Part shown: in pieces, positions 11,506-20,858 of the stretch
Layout: every line of letters starts with the position of its first letter
Numbering within the stretch: the first letter of the stretch is position 1
Virus record (IMG/VR): IMGVR_UViG_3300032050_000981
Span: 1-20,858 of that record
Direction: 5' to 3' (one strand)
Length of the DNA: 20,858 nucleotides
Origin: a virus
Program-made: the position numbers and the translations under genes
Notes under the pieces: generated by a model
What the model saw: the letters and a program-made list of their open reading frames with translations, nothing else
The model's database searches: none
What the model was told of the DNA's origin: nothing

Positions 11506-13497
<1,992 letters not shown>

Positions 13498-15851: not shown

Positions 15852-16181
15852 TTATCGAGTTACTTCTGGAGTAACCGTGACTATTCCCTCTTGGACTCTT
15901 GTTACTATCGCAGCATTACTCGTAATTTCACAGTCATAGACATATCTACCATATGAAATATTGGCAGTAGCATTAGCAGAAAGAGAAAGAGTGACCGTAC
16001 CAGAGTTTGCAACTGTAACTACAAATGATGTAGAGTTAGTAGACGAATAGTGTCTACGCATCTGAGCAGCACCTGTATAGTTAGTCAAATCCATAACATC
16101 ACCGTTTGAATCTTTAACCGTGATGGTGTTACTGAATGTAGCGCCTTGATCTATAACTAGGTTTGCTTTTGTCGATGCCAT
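15852..16181 (-). CDS. Small Ig-like beta-sandwich virion protein (BppU-like N-terminal domain type)
   Basis: 109 residues. It opens NLVIDQGATFSNTITVKDSN then GDVMDLTNYTGAAQMRRH, followed by alternating strands ending EGIVTVTPEVTR. The pattern of a DQGATF strand, a DLTGY-like turn, an AQMR strand and a closing V-strand is common in small phage structural proteins, including the N-terminal domain of baseplate upper proteins. I recall close relatives beside gp13 in marine T4-like phages. The function is not established. A minor neck, fibre or tail attachment role is inferred from its place directly upstream of gp13. It has a GGAT ribosome site and two late-promoter octamers upstream, so it is a late gene. 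Confidence 0.8.
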   Translation of the reverse strand: MASTKANLVIDQGATFSNTITVKDSNGDVMDLTNYTGAAQMRRHYSSTNSTSFVVTVANSGTVTLSLSANATANISYGRYVYDCEITSNAAIVTRVQEGIVTVTPEVTR

Positions 16182-16207: not shown

Positions 16208-16906
16208 CTATTTATTATTTATAGAGTACCAGTTTCTATCTAATTTAGTATCAGCATTTACTATTGGAAAACTAAGAGAGATTCTTTTTTTAAGTGGAAA
16301 GCATTCATGATACTGATGTTTAGGTACATAGATCATATCGCCTGATTCTAGGTCACATTCAAACTCTACATCTAAATCCTTGCCATTCACATTGTATTCA
16401 AAGTTACAATCTTTGGCGCGTTGCTTATAGACTTTCCAATGACACTTACCAGATTGATGCAAGATTACGTTGTCAGCGTGATCGTAGTGCGCTCTGAACG
16501 ATTTGCTTTTCTTTAATCCGCAGTAAGCATGTACATCTACTGCCGTTTGTGGTATGATAGATTCTATCAGAGAACATATATGATTCACTTCCTTAGTTAT
16601 CTTAGATGCTCCAAGAATAACTAAACTATGACCAGCATTGATCTTATTGAACACGAATTGCGGATCTGGTCGTGGAGTATGAGACCATGCACAAGTAAAA
16701 AGCGGGATCTCTATCTTAACACGATTCTCATTGATAAGTTCTATACATTCAGGAGTAATACGATAGGTATCGTTTAGAAGATACTCTATGTCATCCCATT
16801 TGATTAATTTATGATCTAAAATATCCTTGGAATAAAATGCAGTTTGCGGATCACGACTAATCTTAATCAAAAGAGTTTCTAGGAAAGCACGTTCTTTTTT
16901 ATTCAT
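16208..16906 (-). CDS. JmjC/cupin-type Fe(II) oxygenase (putative protein hydroxylase)
   Basis: 232 residues. The core has the double-stranded beta-helix pattern of Cupin_4/JmjC oxygenases: FRAHYDHADNVILHQSGKCH then WKVY, with the metal-binding pair H140-x-D142, and GDMIYVPKHQYHECFPL, in which H200 is the likely third ligand. Known bacterial relatives of this family hydroxylate ribosomal proteins using 2-oxoglutarate. The substrate here is unknown. The N-terminal 70 residues, rich in charged helices, have no clear parallel. No Shine-Dalgarno site precedes the ATG, which lies in a very AT-rich stretch 14 bases after the previous gene. It is the last gene of an AT-rich accessory cassette and is followed by late promoters that overlap its stop codon. 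The family call is good; the biological role is open. Confidence 0.78.
   Translation of the reverse strand: MNKKERAFLETLLIKISRDPQTAFYSKDILDHKLIKWDDIEYLLNDTYRITPECIELINENRVKIEIPLFTCAWSHTPRPDPQFVFNKINAGHSLVILGASKITKEVNHICSLIESIIPQTAVDVHAYCGLKKSKSFRAHYDHADNVILHQSGKCHWKVYKQRAKDCNFEYNVNGKDLDVEFECDLESGDMIYVPKHQYHECFPLKKRISLSFPIVNADTKLDRNWYSINNK
16209..16223 (-). promoter_or_regulatory. Tandem late promoters (TATAAATA and AATAAATA) for the 109-aa gene and downstream
   Basis: TATAAATA at 16223-16216 and AATAAATA at 16216-16209 on the minus strand share one base. They overlap the last codons and the TAG stop of the oxygenase gene, and lie 28-42 bases before the next ATG at 16181. Confidence 0.7.
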
Positions 16907-16920
16907 AATATAATTTAAAA

Positions 16921-17448
16921 TTATAATCGTGTTATAATAGCAGTAATATCTCCGCTCTGTAATCGAATTGTAAGATTTTTTCCAGAAATATTTCGACCGA
17001 AATTTAATGCAGTTATCTCATTTCCATTTGCAATACATTTACCAATGATAGGTACAATATATCTGGTTTTATCAGACATACCTAAATCCATAGATTCCTC
17101 TATTATTGTAAAATCATGATTTTGTGTGTATGGAATAGGATTGAATGCAACATAGTACAATAAATTATTTCCGTTATTTAGAGCAGTTACTTTATTATTA
17201 AAGTAGGATCTAAAATTTATACCTTGTTTATGAGTACCAATAATTTCTATATTACCATTAATTCTATCATGAACAGTATATTTCATGTGGGGATTATCAG
17301 AGGAATCTAAACTTTGGATTACGCAATATACCCATTCATTGGCAATCCCGTCTCCTCTTAAAATCATATCTACAGATTCATGTGATCCAATATATCCATA
17401 ACAAATATTGAATTCATCTGTTTTTATTAAATTTGTAATTGTAGTCAT
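16921..17448 (-). CDS. Unknown beta-rich accessory protein
   Basis: 175 residues that I do not recognise. Predicted secondary structure is mainly strands, with many Asn, Ile and Tyr residues and no signal peptide or membrane helix. The final stretch (about 135-175) alternates small hydrophobic strands and Gly turns (VPIIGKCIANGNEITALNFG, and LTIRLQSGDITAIITRL at the end). This could be the second half of a cupin-like barrel, but the metal ligands expected for an enzyme are not evident, so this is only a suggestion. It sits between two small or oxygenase genes in the AT-rich cassette and has only a weak AAAGA ribosome site. The continuous reading frame and tight spacing (14 and 21 bases) support a real gene. 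Confidence 0.65.
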   Translation of the reverse strand: MTTITNLIKTDEFNICYGYIGSHESVDMILRGDGIANEWVYCVIQSLDSSDNPHMKYTVHDRINGNIEIIGTHKQGINFRSYFNNKVTALNNGNNLLYYVAFNPIPYTQNHDFTIIEESMDLGMSDKTRYIVPIIGKCIANGNEITALNFGRNISGKNLTIRLQSGDITAIITRL

Positions 17449-17469
17449 TTATTTACTATCTTTTTAGAT

Positions 17470-17748
17470 TTAAACGTCGATAATATCGCGATATGATGGC
17501 ACGATATGATCGCTAGATGAACCAACTAATTGTAGTAATTCTAATTTAGTTACAGATAACATCAAAGGCACTTTTTTCCATGTGTCTTTAAATTGATATG
17601 CAACTTCGTTTAACATTGTAACTAAGTCGTCTCGATTACCAGTCCATTTGAATATATTACTATTCTCTTGTACTCCATTAGTAAAACTCACGGTAATATT
17701 ACCAAGAGTTTCATCTACTTCTGTAATCTTCCAAGTTACTTCGCTCAT
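17470..17748 (-). CDS. Small unknown protein in the oxygenase cassette
   Basis: 92 residues with an N-terminal beta portion (VTWKITEVDETLGNITVSFT) and a C-terminal helical portion with Trp, Lys and Leu (about 42-80). I do not recognise a family with certainty. The opening resembles small proteins that accompany tail-fibre genes in marine T4-like phages, some suspected to be fibre assembly factors, but that is weak. Its ATG overlaps the stop of the upstream oxygenase gene by four bases (ATGA), so its translation is probably coupled to that enzyme. This argues for a shared or sequential function. Confidence 0.65.
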   Translation of the reverse strand: MSEVTWKITEVDETLGNITVSFTNGVQENSNIFKWTGNRDDLVTMLNEVAYQFKDTWKKVPLMLSVTKLELLQLVGSSSDHIVPSYRDIIDV

Positions 17749-18341
17749 TTAAACCTCGGTCCTGATATCCATACGACAAGAGTTCGTCTTGTCCCGTTTG
17801 TTATTGGTGTGACTCTATGTAATATATATGACGGAAACGCATATAGTAATCCTTTTTGTTTTTTACAAACATGAGGAATATTTCCCGTCATTAATTCTAA
17901 GTCCCCTCCTTCATATTCTGAAGGATGAGATAATTGTAAAACCATAGATAATTTTCTAGGAACATTATCGTTTGGTCCATTGTCCATATGCCAATCATAA
18001 TGTTGTTTAGATTTCTTTACATATTTATACGTTGTATACTGGAACAGTTCTCCAAATCCCCATAAATCTAAACCAAAAAATTTACCATTCAATTGTCTGG
18101 CTATATGTTGAAGTCTATCGGCTAACCATCCTTCATTATCTAACCATGATATAGTTGAACCTCGAATATTTTCATCACGAACTCCTTGACCTATGATAGC
18201 AGATTGAGGAGGTGCTCTTTCTCCCATTGTGCATATAGCATCTATCTCTTCATCAGTAAATCCATTTTCCCACCAAGCAAAAGTTGTACTATTATATGCC
18301 AAATCTGGCGATGGCATAAACATCTTCATTTGCGTACCCAT
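17745..18341 (-). CDS. 2-oxoglutarate/Fe(II) oxygenase of the prolyl-hydroxylase/PiuC type
   Basis: 198 residues. The metal-binding and cosubstrate residues are visible: HYDWHMDNG with H118-x-D120 (H114-x-D116 is an alternative pair), LHRVTPITNGTRR with distal H175, and R185, ten residues later, as the usual 2-oxoglutarate anchor. The HRVTP-(6 residues)-R pattern is characteristic of PiuC/PKHD-type hydroxylases. Such enzymes use O2 and 2-oxoglutarate to hydroxylate proline or other residues in proteins, or act on small molecules. The substrate is not shown by the sequence. The gene overlaps its upstream neighbour by 16 bases. A second in-frame ATG at 18329 would form an ATGA overlap with the upstream stop and may be the true start, removing four residues. 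It lies next to, but not touching, a collagen-like adhesin gene. Confidence 0.85.
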   Translation of the reverse strand: MGTQMKMFMPSPDLAYNSTTFAWWENGFTDEEIDAICTMGERAPPQSAIIGQGVRDENIRGSTISWLDNEGWLADRLQHIARQLNGKFFGLDLWGFGELFQYTTYKYVKKSKQHYDWHMDNGPNDNVPRKLSMVLQLSHPSEYEGGDLELMTGNIPHVCKKQKGLLYAFPSYILHRVTPITNGTRRTLVVWISGPRFK

Positions 18342-19033
18342 AAATTATTTCGATAATGACTACGCTCAACTTTCATCCTAGCCGAAGTTTTTTGTATTTT
18401 CTTCAATTCTTGTTGATTTAACTCATGTATGTCAGCTTCGATTTCAAAAGAACTTCTTTGTATTGGAATAGCCTGTATCAACGGAGTACCTACTGGAAGC
18501 ATTCCTTGAAAATTAGGTTTATTCCAAAAAGCAGGAAAATTTACAAATTCTTCATATCTATCACAATCTACTATACCAGTAACACAAGAAAATCTTTCAT
18601 CTTCTCTGTTAAAAGGAGAGGTAAAAAGAACTGACCATCCATCAGGAACTTTGATTGACCAATAGTTTAAAAATTTAATTGGAGGTTTAGGGTATTTCGG
18701 ATGTTTATCATCATTTATTTGACTAGCTAAATGAGATTCTAATATTGGCTTGTTCCAATCGCAATGCCAATCGATGCGAGAACAATCTTCATTCGTAGTA
18801 ATGTGTACTTCAGACGCTAATGGAATAATCCATCCTACAATCATCGCATCTAGAAAAGGAGCACATCTTTTAATAGTGGAACTATTCGAATTTGAATCTA
18901 ATGCGGGAACAAGATCTTTATACCAATTAGGCATAAGTTTTCTTGCCGGATAAGGTTTTGGAATTACATCCCAATCTTCTTCACGACATCTAAATTCAAT
19001 TACAGATTGTTTTGGCTTAAACCACTTAAACAT
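18326..19033 (-). CDS. DUF6065-like protein of unknown function
   Basis: 235 residues. The pattern of CREEDWDVIPKPYPARKLMP then NWYKDLVPA near 16-44, TIKRCAPFLDAMIVGWIIPL near 53-72, a Trp-rich segment, PPIKFLNYWSIKVPDGWSVL then FTSPFNR near 116-142, and NFPAFWNKPNFQGMLPVGTP near 164-183 matches a family I know from many phages and some bacteria as DUF6065. Its function is unknown, and I see no catalytic signature. Aromatic and proline-rich blocks suggest a compact beta-type fold. It lies directly after the glycine-rich adhesin gene (28-base gap) and overlaps the oxygenase gene by 16 bases, so it is likely part of the same accessory unit. The ribosome site is a weak GTGAG. Confidence 0.75.
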   Translation of the reverse strand: MFKWFKPKQSVIEFRCREEDWDVIPKPYPARKLMPNWYKDLVPALDSNSNSSTIKRCAPFLDAMIVGWIIPLASEVHITTNEDCSRIDWHCDWNKPILESHLASQINDDKHPKYPKPPIKFLNYWSIKVPDGWSVLFTSPFNREDERFSCVTGIVDCDRYEEFVNFPAFWNKPNFQGMLPVGTPLIQAIPIQRSSFEIEADIHELNQQELKKIQKTSARMKVERSHYRNNLWVRK

Positions 19034-19061
19034 AATTTTTCACTCACTTTTATATTATATA

Positions 19062-20267
19062 TCATCGTTCAGAACCAGTCCATGAAATGACTACGCTTCC
19101 ATTTGCAGCTCCAACAGTACCATTAGCGGCTTGGGAACCGGGTGTTAAATTACCAATTCTTCCACCAGTGCCTCCAGTGCCTCCAGTGCCACGACTGCCA
19201 ATTTGAATAGTTAATACATCACCTGAAGTTACACGAACTAACGTATCAGTACGCGATTGTCCTGCGCCTCCTGATTGACCAGGAGGAGATACTACTCCAA
19301 TTGTGCCATTTACGCTTGGTGCATTTGCTGCAACTCCTCCATTACCTCCAGTTGCACCACCTCCACCTCCACCTGCACCTGCATATGGTTGACCGATCGC
19401 TCCAGCGCCGCCATCTCCAGCATTTCCGGGTCCAGCACCTCCAGCACCGCCAGCCCCGCCTGTGCTGTTTGTGGTATTCCATGGTTGACCAATAGTACCG
19501 GCTTGACCCGACGTTCCTGCGGTTCCACTTGGAGTGCCTCCAGCTCCGCCTTGACCACCAGCACCGCCTGGCCCGCCGGGATTATTAGTTGAGTTTGCGC
19601 GAGTGCCTCCAGATCCTCCAGCGCCGCCTTGACCACCGTTTCCAGCAGTTGCTTGAGCAGCTGTGCCAGCATTTCCTGCGGCCCCGCCCGGTCCACCAGC
19701 ACCTGCACTACCTCCAGCATATGTTAATGTTGTAAATGCAGCTGCTGTTGTTTGTCCAACTACGTTAGTGGCACCGCCCGCATTACCTGCTGCTCCTTGT
19801 TGACCAGTTCCTGCAGCTATACCAGGAGTTATTATGTTCCCTGCGGCGCCGACGTTTCCAGGCTGACCTCTTGTTCCAGCTTGTCCAGGCGCATTAGCAC
19901 CTTGATACGGGCCGGCTAAATTGTTGCCGCCTTGTCCGCCAGCGCCGCCGACACCTTGAGGACTGGATGCAGCGGCTTGTCCAGCTTGACCTGCTATAGC
20001 AATGTTTGCTTTGACACCATTAAGACCTCCACCGCCACCGCCACCGCCGCCGGCTGTGCCAGCATTTCCAGAACCGGCCGCATTTCTATTTTCTCCAGTT
20101 CCAGCACTACCTAATCCACCCGCTCCTCCGGAGCCTCCACTAGCCCCAGCGCCTTGCACACTAATCCACTGCACTCCGACAGGAACAGTAAAAGTTCCAG
20201 ATGTGTTAAACGTCTGAGTACCAGCTGCAGCAGACTGACGTATTCTGGCTCTAAATCCTAATGGCAT
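19062..20267 (-). CDS. Glycine-rich (Gly-X-Y block) virion protein, candidate adhesin
   Basis: 401 residues, with glycine by far the commonest, plus Ala, Asn, Gln, Thr and Pro. A short beta frame, FNTSGTFTVPVGVQWISVQG near 20-39 and VRVTSGDVLTIQIGSRG near 344-360, closing with GSVVISWTG, brackets long glycine inserts. This resembles the glycine-rich domains of phage tail proteins and, more distantly, the polyglycine-II loops of S16-type gp38 adhesins. Blocks with Gly at every third residue are seen at 128-145, 189-203, 209-223, 232-246 and 248-262. A run of nine glycines lies at 73-81. Base composition is GC-rich because of GGN, GCN and CCN codons. It lies 3 bases after the upstream gene. A role in host recognition or fibre-tip structure is inferred from composition and position upstream of the neck genes. 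Confidence 0.8.
   Translation of the reverse strand: MPLGFRARIRQSAAAGTQTFNTSGTFTVPVGVQWISVQGAGASGGSGGAGGLGSAGTGENRNAAGSGNAGTAGGGGGGGGGLNGVKANIAIAGQAGQAAASSPQGVGGAGGQGGNNLAGPYQGANAPGQAGTRGQPGNVGAAGNIITPGIAAGTGQQGAAGNAGGATNVVGQTTAAAFTTLTYAGGSAGAGGPGGAAGNAGTAAQATAGNGGQGGAGGSGGTRANSTNNPGGPGGAGGQGGAGGTPSGTAGTSGQAGTIGQPWNTTNSTGGAGGAGGAGPGNAGDGGAGAIGQPYAGAGGGGGGATGGNGGVAANAPSVNGTIGVVSPPGQSGGAGQSRTDTLVRVTSGDVLTIQIGSRGTGGTGGTGGRIGNLTPGSQAANGTVGAANGSVVISWTGSER
19165..19190. repeat. Short tandem repeat, 9-bp unit, about 2.9 copies
   Basis: CCAGTGCCT is repeated almost three times without mismatch. On the minus strand it encodes three Gly-Gly-Thr units of the glycine-rich protein (about residues 360-368). 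Repeats of this kind can change copy number by slippage. Confidence 0.8.
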
Positions 20268-20270
20268 GTA

Positions 20271-20612
20271 TTATGGCTCGTAATTCTTGAAAGTTTCATC
20301 TGCAAGCAATGATTCTAAAGTTAGATGAACGGTATGCTTTGGATAACCGCCATTGATAGAAGAATCGGCTTTTTGATATATTAAAAATGGAAATGATTCA
20401 GGCGAAAGTAAAAATGAACCATCTGGATTAGGTCCAAACCAAGAATTTACTGGATCTACTACGGCTTGTAGATTTTCTAGTGTAGTACCACCGTAATTTA
20501 GATCTTTCCATTCTACATTCAATGAACTCAGATACTGTCTCCAAGGACAAGAATATAGTTTAGAAGCAGGTGTGATTGAATATAAAGTAGCATCGTAAAT
20601 AACAACAGCCAT
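20271..20612 (-). CDS. Small unknown protein in the tail-fibre region
   Basis: 113 residues that I do not recognise. It is mixed in character, with many aromatics and Pro/Gly turns (NSWFGPNPDGSFLLSPESFP near 57-76) and a possible helix near 95-108. There is no signal peptide or membrane segment. A strong GGAGGA ribosome site lies 5 bases before the ATG, better than those of the accessory genes downstream, and it follows the upstream gene by 12 bases. It directly precedes the glycine-rich protein with a 3-base gap, so it may be a virion partner, capping subunit or chaperone of the adhesin. This is inference from position only. Confidence 0.7.
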   Translation of the reverse strand: MAVVIYDATLYSITPASKLYSCPWRQYLSSLNVEWKDLNYGGTTLENLQAVVDPVNSWFGPNPDGSFLLSPESFPFLIYQKADSSINGGYPKHTVHLTLESLLADETFKNYEP

Positions 20613-20624
20613 CGAGTCCTCCTA

Positions 20625-20858
20625 TTAAGTAGTAAAGTTCATAAAAGATGGTGCTACTATATATGAAGAACCACCATCATAAGTTATTACAGATAATATA
20701 TCGCTTTTTGCTGGGCTTAACGTTAATGTTGGAGCAGTATTGTATGCATATTTCATTGTACCAGCAGCACCGGCTTGAGTGTTGCCCTGAATAGCTAGTG
20801 CTCCAATTGAGTTAGCGCCAGTGCCTAGGTATTGAAGAATAAGCGTTGCAGAAACCGC
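20625..20858 (-). CDS. C-terminal end of a virion/tail-fibre-type protein (cut by window edge)
   Basis: An open frame enters from the right edge and ends with TAA at 20627-20625, giving the last 77 residues. It is a beta-type sequence, rich in Ala, Thr, Ser and Asn, with NSIGALAIQGNTQAGAAGTM then KYAYNTAPTLTLSPAKSDIL, ending SYIVAPSFMNFTT. The pattern of a short strand, a DGGSSY-like turn, and a closing aromatic strand is common at the C-terminus of phage tail-fibre and other receptor-binding proteins. Identity cannot be fixed from this fragment. It is 12 bases upstream of the next gene and probably shares its transcript. Confidence 0.7.
   Translation of the reverse strand, partial: AVSATLILQYLGTGANSIGALAIQGNTQAGAAGTMKYAYNTAPTLTLSPAKSDILSVITYDGGSSYIVAPSFMNFTT

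Follow-up and report, generated by a model that had tools for sequence, protein, structure and literature searches.

What does an Fe(II) oxygenase modify when its gene stands among the structural genes of a tailed phage? The question is raised by IMG/VR record IMGVR_UViG_3300032050_000981, whose 20,858 bases (hereafter, the window) belong to a T4-like myovirus and make up its structural module, with every gene on the minus strand. There, a glycine-rich tail adhesin of 401 amino acids (aa; 19062..20267) is followed by a DUF6065-like gene (18326..19033), a 198-aa 2-oxoglutarate (2OG)-Fe(II) oxygenase (17745..18341) and, further downstream, a second oxygenase of 232 aa (16208..16906). An earlier note, which did not mention the DUF6065-like gene, had described two Fe(II) oxygenases codirectional with, and behind, a Gly-rich virion-type protein, and had suggested that protein as their substrate; the open reading frames (ORFs) do lie in that arrangement. 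We judge it somewhat probable that, ahead of assembly, the 198-aa enzyme hydroxylates adhesin prolines in X-Pro-Gly context. This reading is favored by gene adjacency, the position of proline within Gly-X-Y triplets, the contrast with other proteins of the same phages, the adhesins of enzyme-less sisters, the enzyme clade and a profile match to prolyl 4-hydroxylases (P4H).

The 198-aa protein matches PF13640 (2OG-Fe(II)_Oxy_3) with 53 bits against a curated cut-off of 27 (E=7e-14), as well as phrog_61 (E=2e-32). The triad H118-x-D120 and H175 and the 2OG-binding residue R185, all named in the earlier note, are present; among 15 relatives H118, D120 and R185 are invariant, and H175 is kept in at least 90%. 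When the family profile was compared with PDB, the top match was PiuC (4e-14), followed by P4H at 1e-9 to 1e-4, and PHD2 (EGLN1) was also matched. The alignments to solved P4H structures span the whole domain (5c5t, 1e-9; 2jig, 2e-8; 5hv0, 9e-5), with PiuC-type hydroxylases scoring above them. By homology, the protein is a 2OG-Fe(II) oxygenase of the PiuC/prolyl-hydroxylase type with putative peptidyl-proline activity. Its gene overlaps the DUF6065-like gene by 16 bases.

About 330 loci (designated by L numbers below) were gathered by scanning IMG/VR with four alignments, those of the DUF6065-like protein, of the oxygenase, of a neck protein and of the N-terminal part of the adhesin; at least 580 DUF6065 loci were reported by the scan. 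The order Gly-rich adhesin, DUF6065-like protein, 2OG oxygenase recurs across the database. For 32 of 42 DUF6065-linked oxygenases (80% non-redundant), there is a same-strand Gly-X-Y ORF whose end lies no more than 1.5 kb upstream, as compared with a mean of 4.3 and a maximum of 12 for random genes of the same loci in 1000 trials. Considering all oxygenases, 47 of 85 have a Gly-X-Y ORF within 1 kb (null mean 25.6, maximum 35 in 300). These loci were collected via enzyme searches, and a counter-sample was built around the neck gene. The adhesins of the relatives have N-terminal segments in common and similar C-terminal strands, joined by a Gly core of widely varying length. Some match PF01391 (L031, E=6e-46; L164, 2e-36), and their Gly-X-Y runs reach 114 triplets, so that a collagen-type or polyglycine-II array bearing hydroxyproline is possible in them. 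Freshwater and marine T4-like phages keep a prolyl-hydroxylase-type enzyme directly behind a Gly-rich tail adhesin, the prolines of which occupy the positions that enzymes of this type target in collagen.

The placement of proline within the triplets is biased as well. In 45 non-redundant adhesins that lie next to both a DUF6065 gene and an oxygenase (7515 triplets), proline fills 14.7% of Y positions (Y-Pro) versus 2.2% of X positions (X-Pro), with Y-Pro exceeding X-Pro in 44 of the 45 and the reverse seen in none. This bias of Y over X is the preference of animal collagen. GPQ-type fibers near more distant oxygenases, with 50% X-Pro and 2% Y-Pro, conform to the published statement that non-animal collagens have no Y preference (PMC3368898). 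Nor is the bias general to a phage: in all eight loci compared, the Y-Pro fraction of other Gly-X-Y proteins is 0-0.10 versus 0.10-0.23 in the adhesin. The co-occurrence of oxygenases with Gly-X-Y proteins that the earlier note would have searched for in relatives is therefore found for the 198-aa enzyme, and it involves Y-Pro, not X-Pro; it is not supported for the second oxygenase, which in this sample, as described below, occurs only in near relatives.

Long adhesins hold proline at a fixed place within a super-repeat of 21-36 residues, often as G-N-P-G-x-N-G (434 of 1069, versus 163 expected). The super-repeats, of 27, 33, 36 or 21 residues and hence multiples of three, occur in L041, L060, L106, L164 and others, far above triplet-shuffled controls. 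Their regularity suggests that stacked polyglycine-II helices with turns would also be compatible with these proteins.

In this sample, Y-Pro follows the enzyme. Among non-redundant Gly ORFs of low X-Pro, the median Y-Pro is 0.119 (n=69) with an oxygenase within 3 kb versus 0.000 (n=13) without (Mann-Whitney p ~1e-6, the sequences being related). For instance, L057, which has the enzyme and is nested among enzyme-less kin, shows 11% Y-Pro and 3.4% Pro-Gly dipeptides, whereas its enzyme-less sisters (L047, L051, L053, L055, L056 and L315) show 0-6% and 0.5-1.5%, respectively. Background proline runs the other way, at 3.7-5.6% in the measured sisters versus 3.1% in L057. Searches of the whole records of L047, L051, L053, L055 and L056, which are possibly fragments, returned no P4H-type enzyme (L315 was not searched whole). 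Four of these sisters instead have a PF13759 (2OG-FeII_Oxy_5) oxygenase directly after DUF6065 in place of the P4H-type enzyme, located at L047:10717-11331, L051:10720-11337, L055:10717-11382 and 11611-12210, and in L056. This swap, accompanied by the loss of adhesin Y-Pro, is an apparent exchange of enzymes. In the oxygenase tree, 38 of the 41 members of one group have a Y-type partner, in several cases without DUF6065, and none of the 21 members of its sister group does; support is modest (80-95).

The adhesin of the window has a conserved N-terminal strand region (residues ~1-45), a core of Gly-X-Y and GG, and conserved C-terminal strands (...ISWTGSER). It is about one-third glycine, its N-terminus can be aligned with adhesins from 15 other loci, and it is located behind the long fiber genes of a T4-like phage, as seen through the overlapping contig L001. 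The repeated Gly-X-Y triplets reported in the earlier note are real as a period of three, since Gly-Gly pairs at lag 3 number 82 versus 42.2 +/- 4.4 in shuffled sequences (z ~9), with the excess vanishing by lag 12. They form no long array, however: the longest run is six triplets, a length equalled in 491 of 2000 shuffles, and Pfam Collagen (PF01391) does not match the protein, which lacks the features of a collagen triple helix. Because the glycine period is broken into such short runs, short polyglycine-II helices like those at the tip of S16 gp38 (PMC6851490) probably suit this adhesin better than a collagen rod, which is the caveat that the earlier note had attached to its own proposal. 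We leave the fold unclaimed since a single-sequence AlphaFold2 model was unusable (predicted local distance difference test score, pLDDT, 35). Relative to the near relative L002, the Pro-Gly sites shift in position while remaining similar in number (9 versus 11). A tblastn search against phages with this low-complexity query gave no matches.

A number of observations weigh against prolyl hydroxylation of the adhesin. The window adhesin is itself a weaker example, with 5% Y-Pro and 3% X-Pro. The nine prolines listed in the earlier note are all in X-Pro-Gly context, but nine Pro-Gly dipeptides is not above chance (5.8 expected; nine or more in 174 of 2000 shuffles, p ~0.09). The enzyme has Arg185 in place of the 2OG-binding Lys of the collagen type, and for this reason we do not class it as a collagen-type P4H. 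Arg is usual at this position in the PHD and PiuC types, and Lys in collagen P4H; the P4H of the algal virus PBCV-1 also differs from the 198-aa enzyme in having Lys. In the counter-sample anchored on the neck gene (gp13), co-presence within 10 kb is not significant, either for oxygenase and Gly ORF (Fisher p=0.32) or for DUF6065 and Gly ORF (p=0.15), and 11 of the 25 neck-anchored loci without an oxygenase have a Gly-rich ORF nonetheless. As Gly-rich ORFs are this common without the enzyme, the evidence is that of adjacency and proline position, not of bare co-presence. The DUF6065 tree requires only three changes of oxygenase state, two of them forced by starred branches; with so few (two to three) evolutionary changes, the with/without contrast in Y-Pro cannot reach significance once kinship is counted. 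Background proline and G+C content are also somewhat higher overall in oxygenase-bearing loci (p 0.02 and 0.04). Finally, more distant members of the oxygenase family adjoin fibers with X-Pro (GPQ) or with almost no proline (L221, L229), and that of L010 adjoins uvsW with no Gly-X-Y ORF nearby. The oxygenase family as a whole is thus not bound to X-Pro-Gly.

Other explanations were weighed. The oxygenase might modify the adhesin, or another tail protein, at some residue outside X-Pro-Gly (Asn at X, a Thr, a Lys or one within the conserved ends), with Y-Pro simply favored structurally by polyglycine-II helices and their turns. Adjacency does outweigh any link to a particular residue, the relatives beside Pro-poor fibers in L221 and L229 would fit, as would the fiber of L004, which is Lys-rich at Y, and proline at a fixed place in the super-repeats behaves like a turn residue. 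Yet Y-Pro is nearly gone from the enzyme-less sister adhesins while Asn at X is still frequent there, and the enzyme clade predicts Y-Pro; we regard this explanation as fairly unlikely. Asn at X was also considered as the main target and rejected, since how often it occurs is unrelated to the presence of the enzyme.

Alternatively, the substrate could lie outside the virion, the location in the tail region being incidental. Candidates would include host or phage proteins (translation factors or ribosomal proteins, as for PPHD, OGFOD1 and YcfD), small molecules, DNA repair, or a lowering of 2-oxoglutarate that affects nitrogen signaling, as proposed for cyanophages (PMC3037559). PHD2 (EGLN1) and other prolyl-hydroxylase types are among the PDB profile matches, the JmjC_2 relatives of the second enzyme are ribosomal oxygenases, and some relatives lie by uvsW (L010) or in tRNA and sugar clusters (S-SCSM1). 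In the clade of the window, however, the gene stays behind the adhesin across great divergence and the position of adhesin proline follows the gene, which makes a non-virion substrate quite unlikely. We consider it highly improbable that the adhesin and the enzymes merely ride, unconnected, in a hypervariable island for host recognition, linked through hot-spot insertion and hitch-hiking. Metaviromic islands of marine phages do have Fe(II) oxygenases among their counted genes (PMC3909814), and the non-significant co-presence near gp13 also points that way, but order and orientation are fixed, genes overlap, and proline position tracks the enzyme clade.

Returning to hydroxylation of the adhesin, the 198-aa enzyme would be a prolyl hydroxylase dedicated to the tail-tip adhesin, whose gene lies two genes upstream. 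During infection, Gly-X-Y segments of newly made adhesin would adopt left-handed helices of the polyglycine-II/polyproline-II type, and prolines at Y, that is, at X-Pro-Gly, would be hydroxylated by the enzyme with Fe(II), O2 and 2-oxoglutarate. The resulting hydroxyproline may give stabler helices or turns, or a changed receptor-binding face, before the adhesin caps the long fiber. The sequences establish what the genes are, that their adjacency is conserved, that proline prefers Y and that this preference is linked to the enzyme clade; the reaction on the adhesin, its stereochemistry and its benefit are what we infer. For the pairing that the earlier note proposed, adjacency and proline position argue in favor as regards the 198-aa oxygenase; they do not extend to the second enzyme, nor to a collagen fold in the window adhesin.

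Among relatives, no gene accompanies the adhesin and the oxygenase more constantly than the DUF6065-like gene that lies between them. We call it DUF6065-like because PF19541 reaches only 17.3 bits against a cut-off of 26.6 (E=0.0036), although eight of nine relatives match that model (best 1.9e-9); phrog_7084 matches the 235-aa protein with E=5e-56. Its AlphaFold2 model (pLDDT 65) has dUTPases as top Foldseek matches, weakly (E=5e-4, TM 0.4-0.55), the second of two copies in L097 matches PF00692 faintly (dUTPase; 0.05), and a relative in cyanophage S-CREM1 is annotated as a triphosphate nucleotidohydrolase. A role as a third oxygenase was rejected, with hhalign showing no kinship to the oxygenase. 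Tandem DUF6065-like genes occur in L005-L009, L021, L097 and L098. In the haloarchaeal viruses HF2 and HRTV-15 (L023, L024), DUF6065 is encoded 1 kb away from a 'putative adhesin' rich in Gly (27%), and neither whole genome contains a P4H-type enzyme. In many Rhizobiales and other Proteobacteria, DUF6065 is a solitary chromosomal gene. Of 80 cellular genome contigs with DUF6065 (L333-L412), 78 lack an oxygenase or Gly-rich ORF, so no cellular role can be transferred; the two with both are contigs of metagenome-assembled genomes, possibly phage. The protein may be a factor that handles the adhesin, in which case it would act as a chaperone or scaffold partner.

The 232-aa enzyme is, as the earlier note recognized, of the JmjC/Cupin_4 type (NO66/MINA/YcfD). 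It matches PF08007 (JmjC_2) with 62.8 bits against a cut-off of 22 (E=3e-17) and NO66 in PDB (E=7e-4), and has the residues H140-Y-D142 and a distal H200. In this sample, it is confined to near relatives (six loci) and we treat it as an optional extra of the module. Cyanophage homologs of this enzyme are found in clusters that contain up to seven 2OG oxygenases, a halogenase and a DUF6065 relative and that lie downstream of Gly-rich proteins of the tail region. Runs of four to seven near-adjacent 2OG oxygenases by tail or terminase genes are found in S-CREM1 (L419, 55789-68484), syn9 (L418) and HTVC008M (L415, 51094-67675), variously including JmjC, tryptophan halogenase and a DUF6065 relative. 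In pelagiphage HTVC008M, one halogenase and one oxygenase lie between the terminase subunits. A broader scheme can be entertained, tentatively and as something short of probable: a pathway of adhesin hydroxylation in tailed phages, in which a DUF6065-like handler and a prolyl hydroxylase place hydroxyproline at X-Pro-Gly of polyglycine-II or collagen-type adhesins, with exchangeable PF13640, PF13759 and JmjC oxygenases tuned to the adhesin sequence.

The remainder of the window encodes neck genes, terminase, sheath, tube, portal, protease, scaffold, capsid and uvsW. Its major head protein belongs to phrog_138 (E=4e-164), and the nearest capsids among annotated phages, at 63-70% identity, are those of Stenotrophomonas phage DLP6, Methylophilales phage Melnitz and Pelagibacter phage Mosig; megablast of the region against annotated phages gave zero matches. 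Contig L001 overlaps the window, with the proteins in common 100% identical, and reads in order: fibers of 989 and 1141 aa, a 113-aa ORF, the adhesin, the DUF6065-like gene, the 2OG oxygenase, two small ORFs, the JmjC_2 gene, a 109-aa fiber-assembly-like gene and the neck genes. Only the 3' end of the 1141-aa fiber gene falls within the window (20625..20858, minus strand, as are all that follow). The 113-aa ORF (20271..20612), separating it from the adhesin, has a homolog at the equivalent place in L018. Behind the 198-aa oxygenase, a 92-aa ORF (17470..17748) overlaps it by four bases and is retained by near relatives, and a 175-aa ORF (16921..17448), located before the JmjC gene, has no family match and is missing from near relatives L002 and L003. 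The 109-aa protein (15852..16181) belongs to phrog_1084 and is kin to the L-shaped tail fiber assembly protein phrog_3304 (E=2e-30, 1e-20). From the adhesin through this gene, intergenic gaps do not exceed 28 bases, with overlaps of 16 and 4 bases at two gene junctions. The T4-late-promoter-like TATAAATA has four sites in the window (3403, 7135, 16216 and 18022), all on the minus, coding strand and three just 5' of genes, a number at chance level (at least four sites in 20 of 100 shuffles). In L016:3371-5968, the large terminase gene is split into two ORFs by an intron- or insertion-like gap of ~550 bases.

The 2OG oxygenases of PHROG 61 are common accessory genes of aquatic phages, and a defined partner, named residues and enzyme-less sister adhesins make for a testable substrate. 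Earlier views of phage 2OG oxygenases invoked nitrogen signaling or DNA repair (PMC3037559), or the decoration of polysaccharides or metabolites (PMC7824862). If the adhesin is the substrate, phages would produce hydroxyproline within adhesins of their own, with consequences for host range, fiber stability and collagen-like biomaterials made without an animal enzyme, and collagen-style hydroxylation would extend, outside eukaryotes, to a structural protein of a prokaryotic virus. No report of the module or the Y-Pro pattern was found in the literature searched, a search that left most subscription journals outside.

Among known systems, cyanophage oxygenases of PHROG 61 have the same catalytic residues as the 198-aa enzyme. 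The Phold paper likens PHROG 61 oxygenases to human EGLN3 and assigns no substrate (PMC12774648); the cyanophage copies that we inspected belong to oxygenase/halogenase or tRNA clusters and do not directly follow an adhesin gene. The PBCV-1 prolyl 4-hydroxylase (Eriksson 1999, cited in PMC9301287) is likewise a virus-encoded 2OG enzyme of the P4H type and reportedly acts on Pro-containing peptides, without a defined partner protein, whereas here a phage gene lies behind a defined adhesin. Viral P4HA genes of the Baltic virome are similar, and a link to collagen tail fibers was raised there in words, but without evidence of partner or position, the use of viral P4H being termed 'cryptic' (PMC9301287). 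The S16-type gp38 (PMC6851490) is also a Gly-rich tip adhesin behind the long fiber genes of a T4-like phage, with short Gly-rich runs; the window adhesin differs in having no sequence family match and no helical attachment domain that we could see, in a period-three core that includes other residues and reaches 114 triplets in relatives, and in its linked enzymes. The collagen-like prophage fibers of E. coli O157 (PMC3368898) are likewise Gly-X-Y parts of phage tails. In that study, bacterial and viral collagens are held to have no Y preference because they lack prolyl hydroxylases; the O157 fibers favor X-Pro and are reportedly unhydroxylated, whereas the adhesins described here favor Y-Pro.

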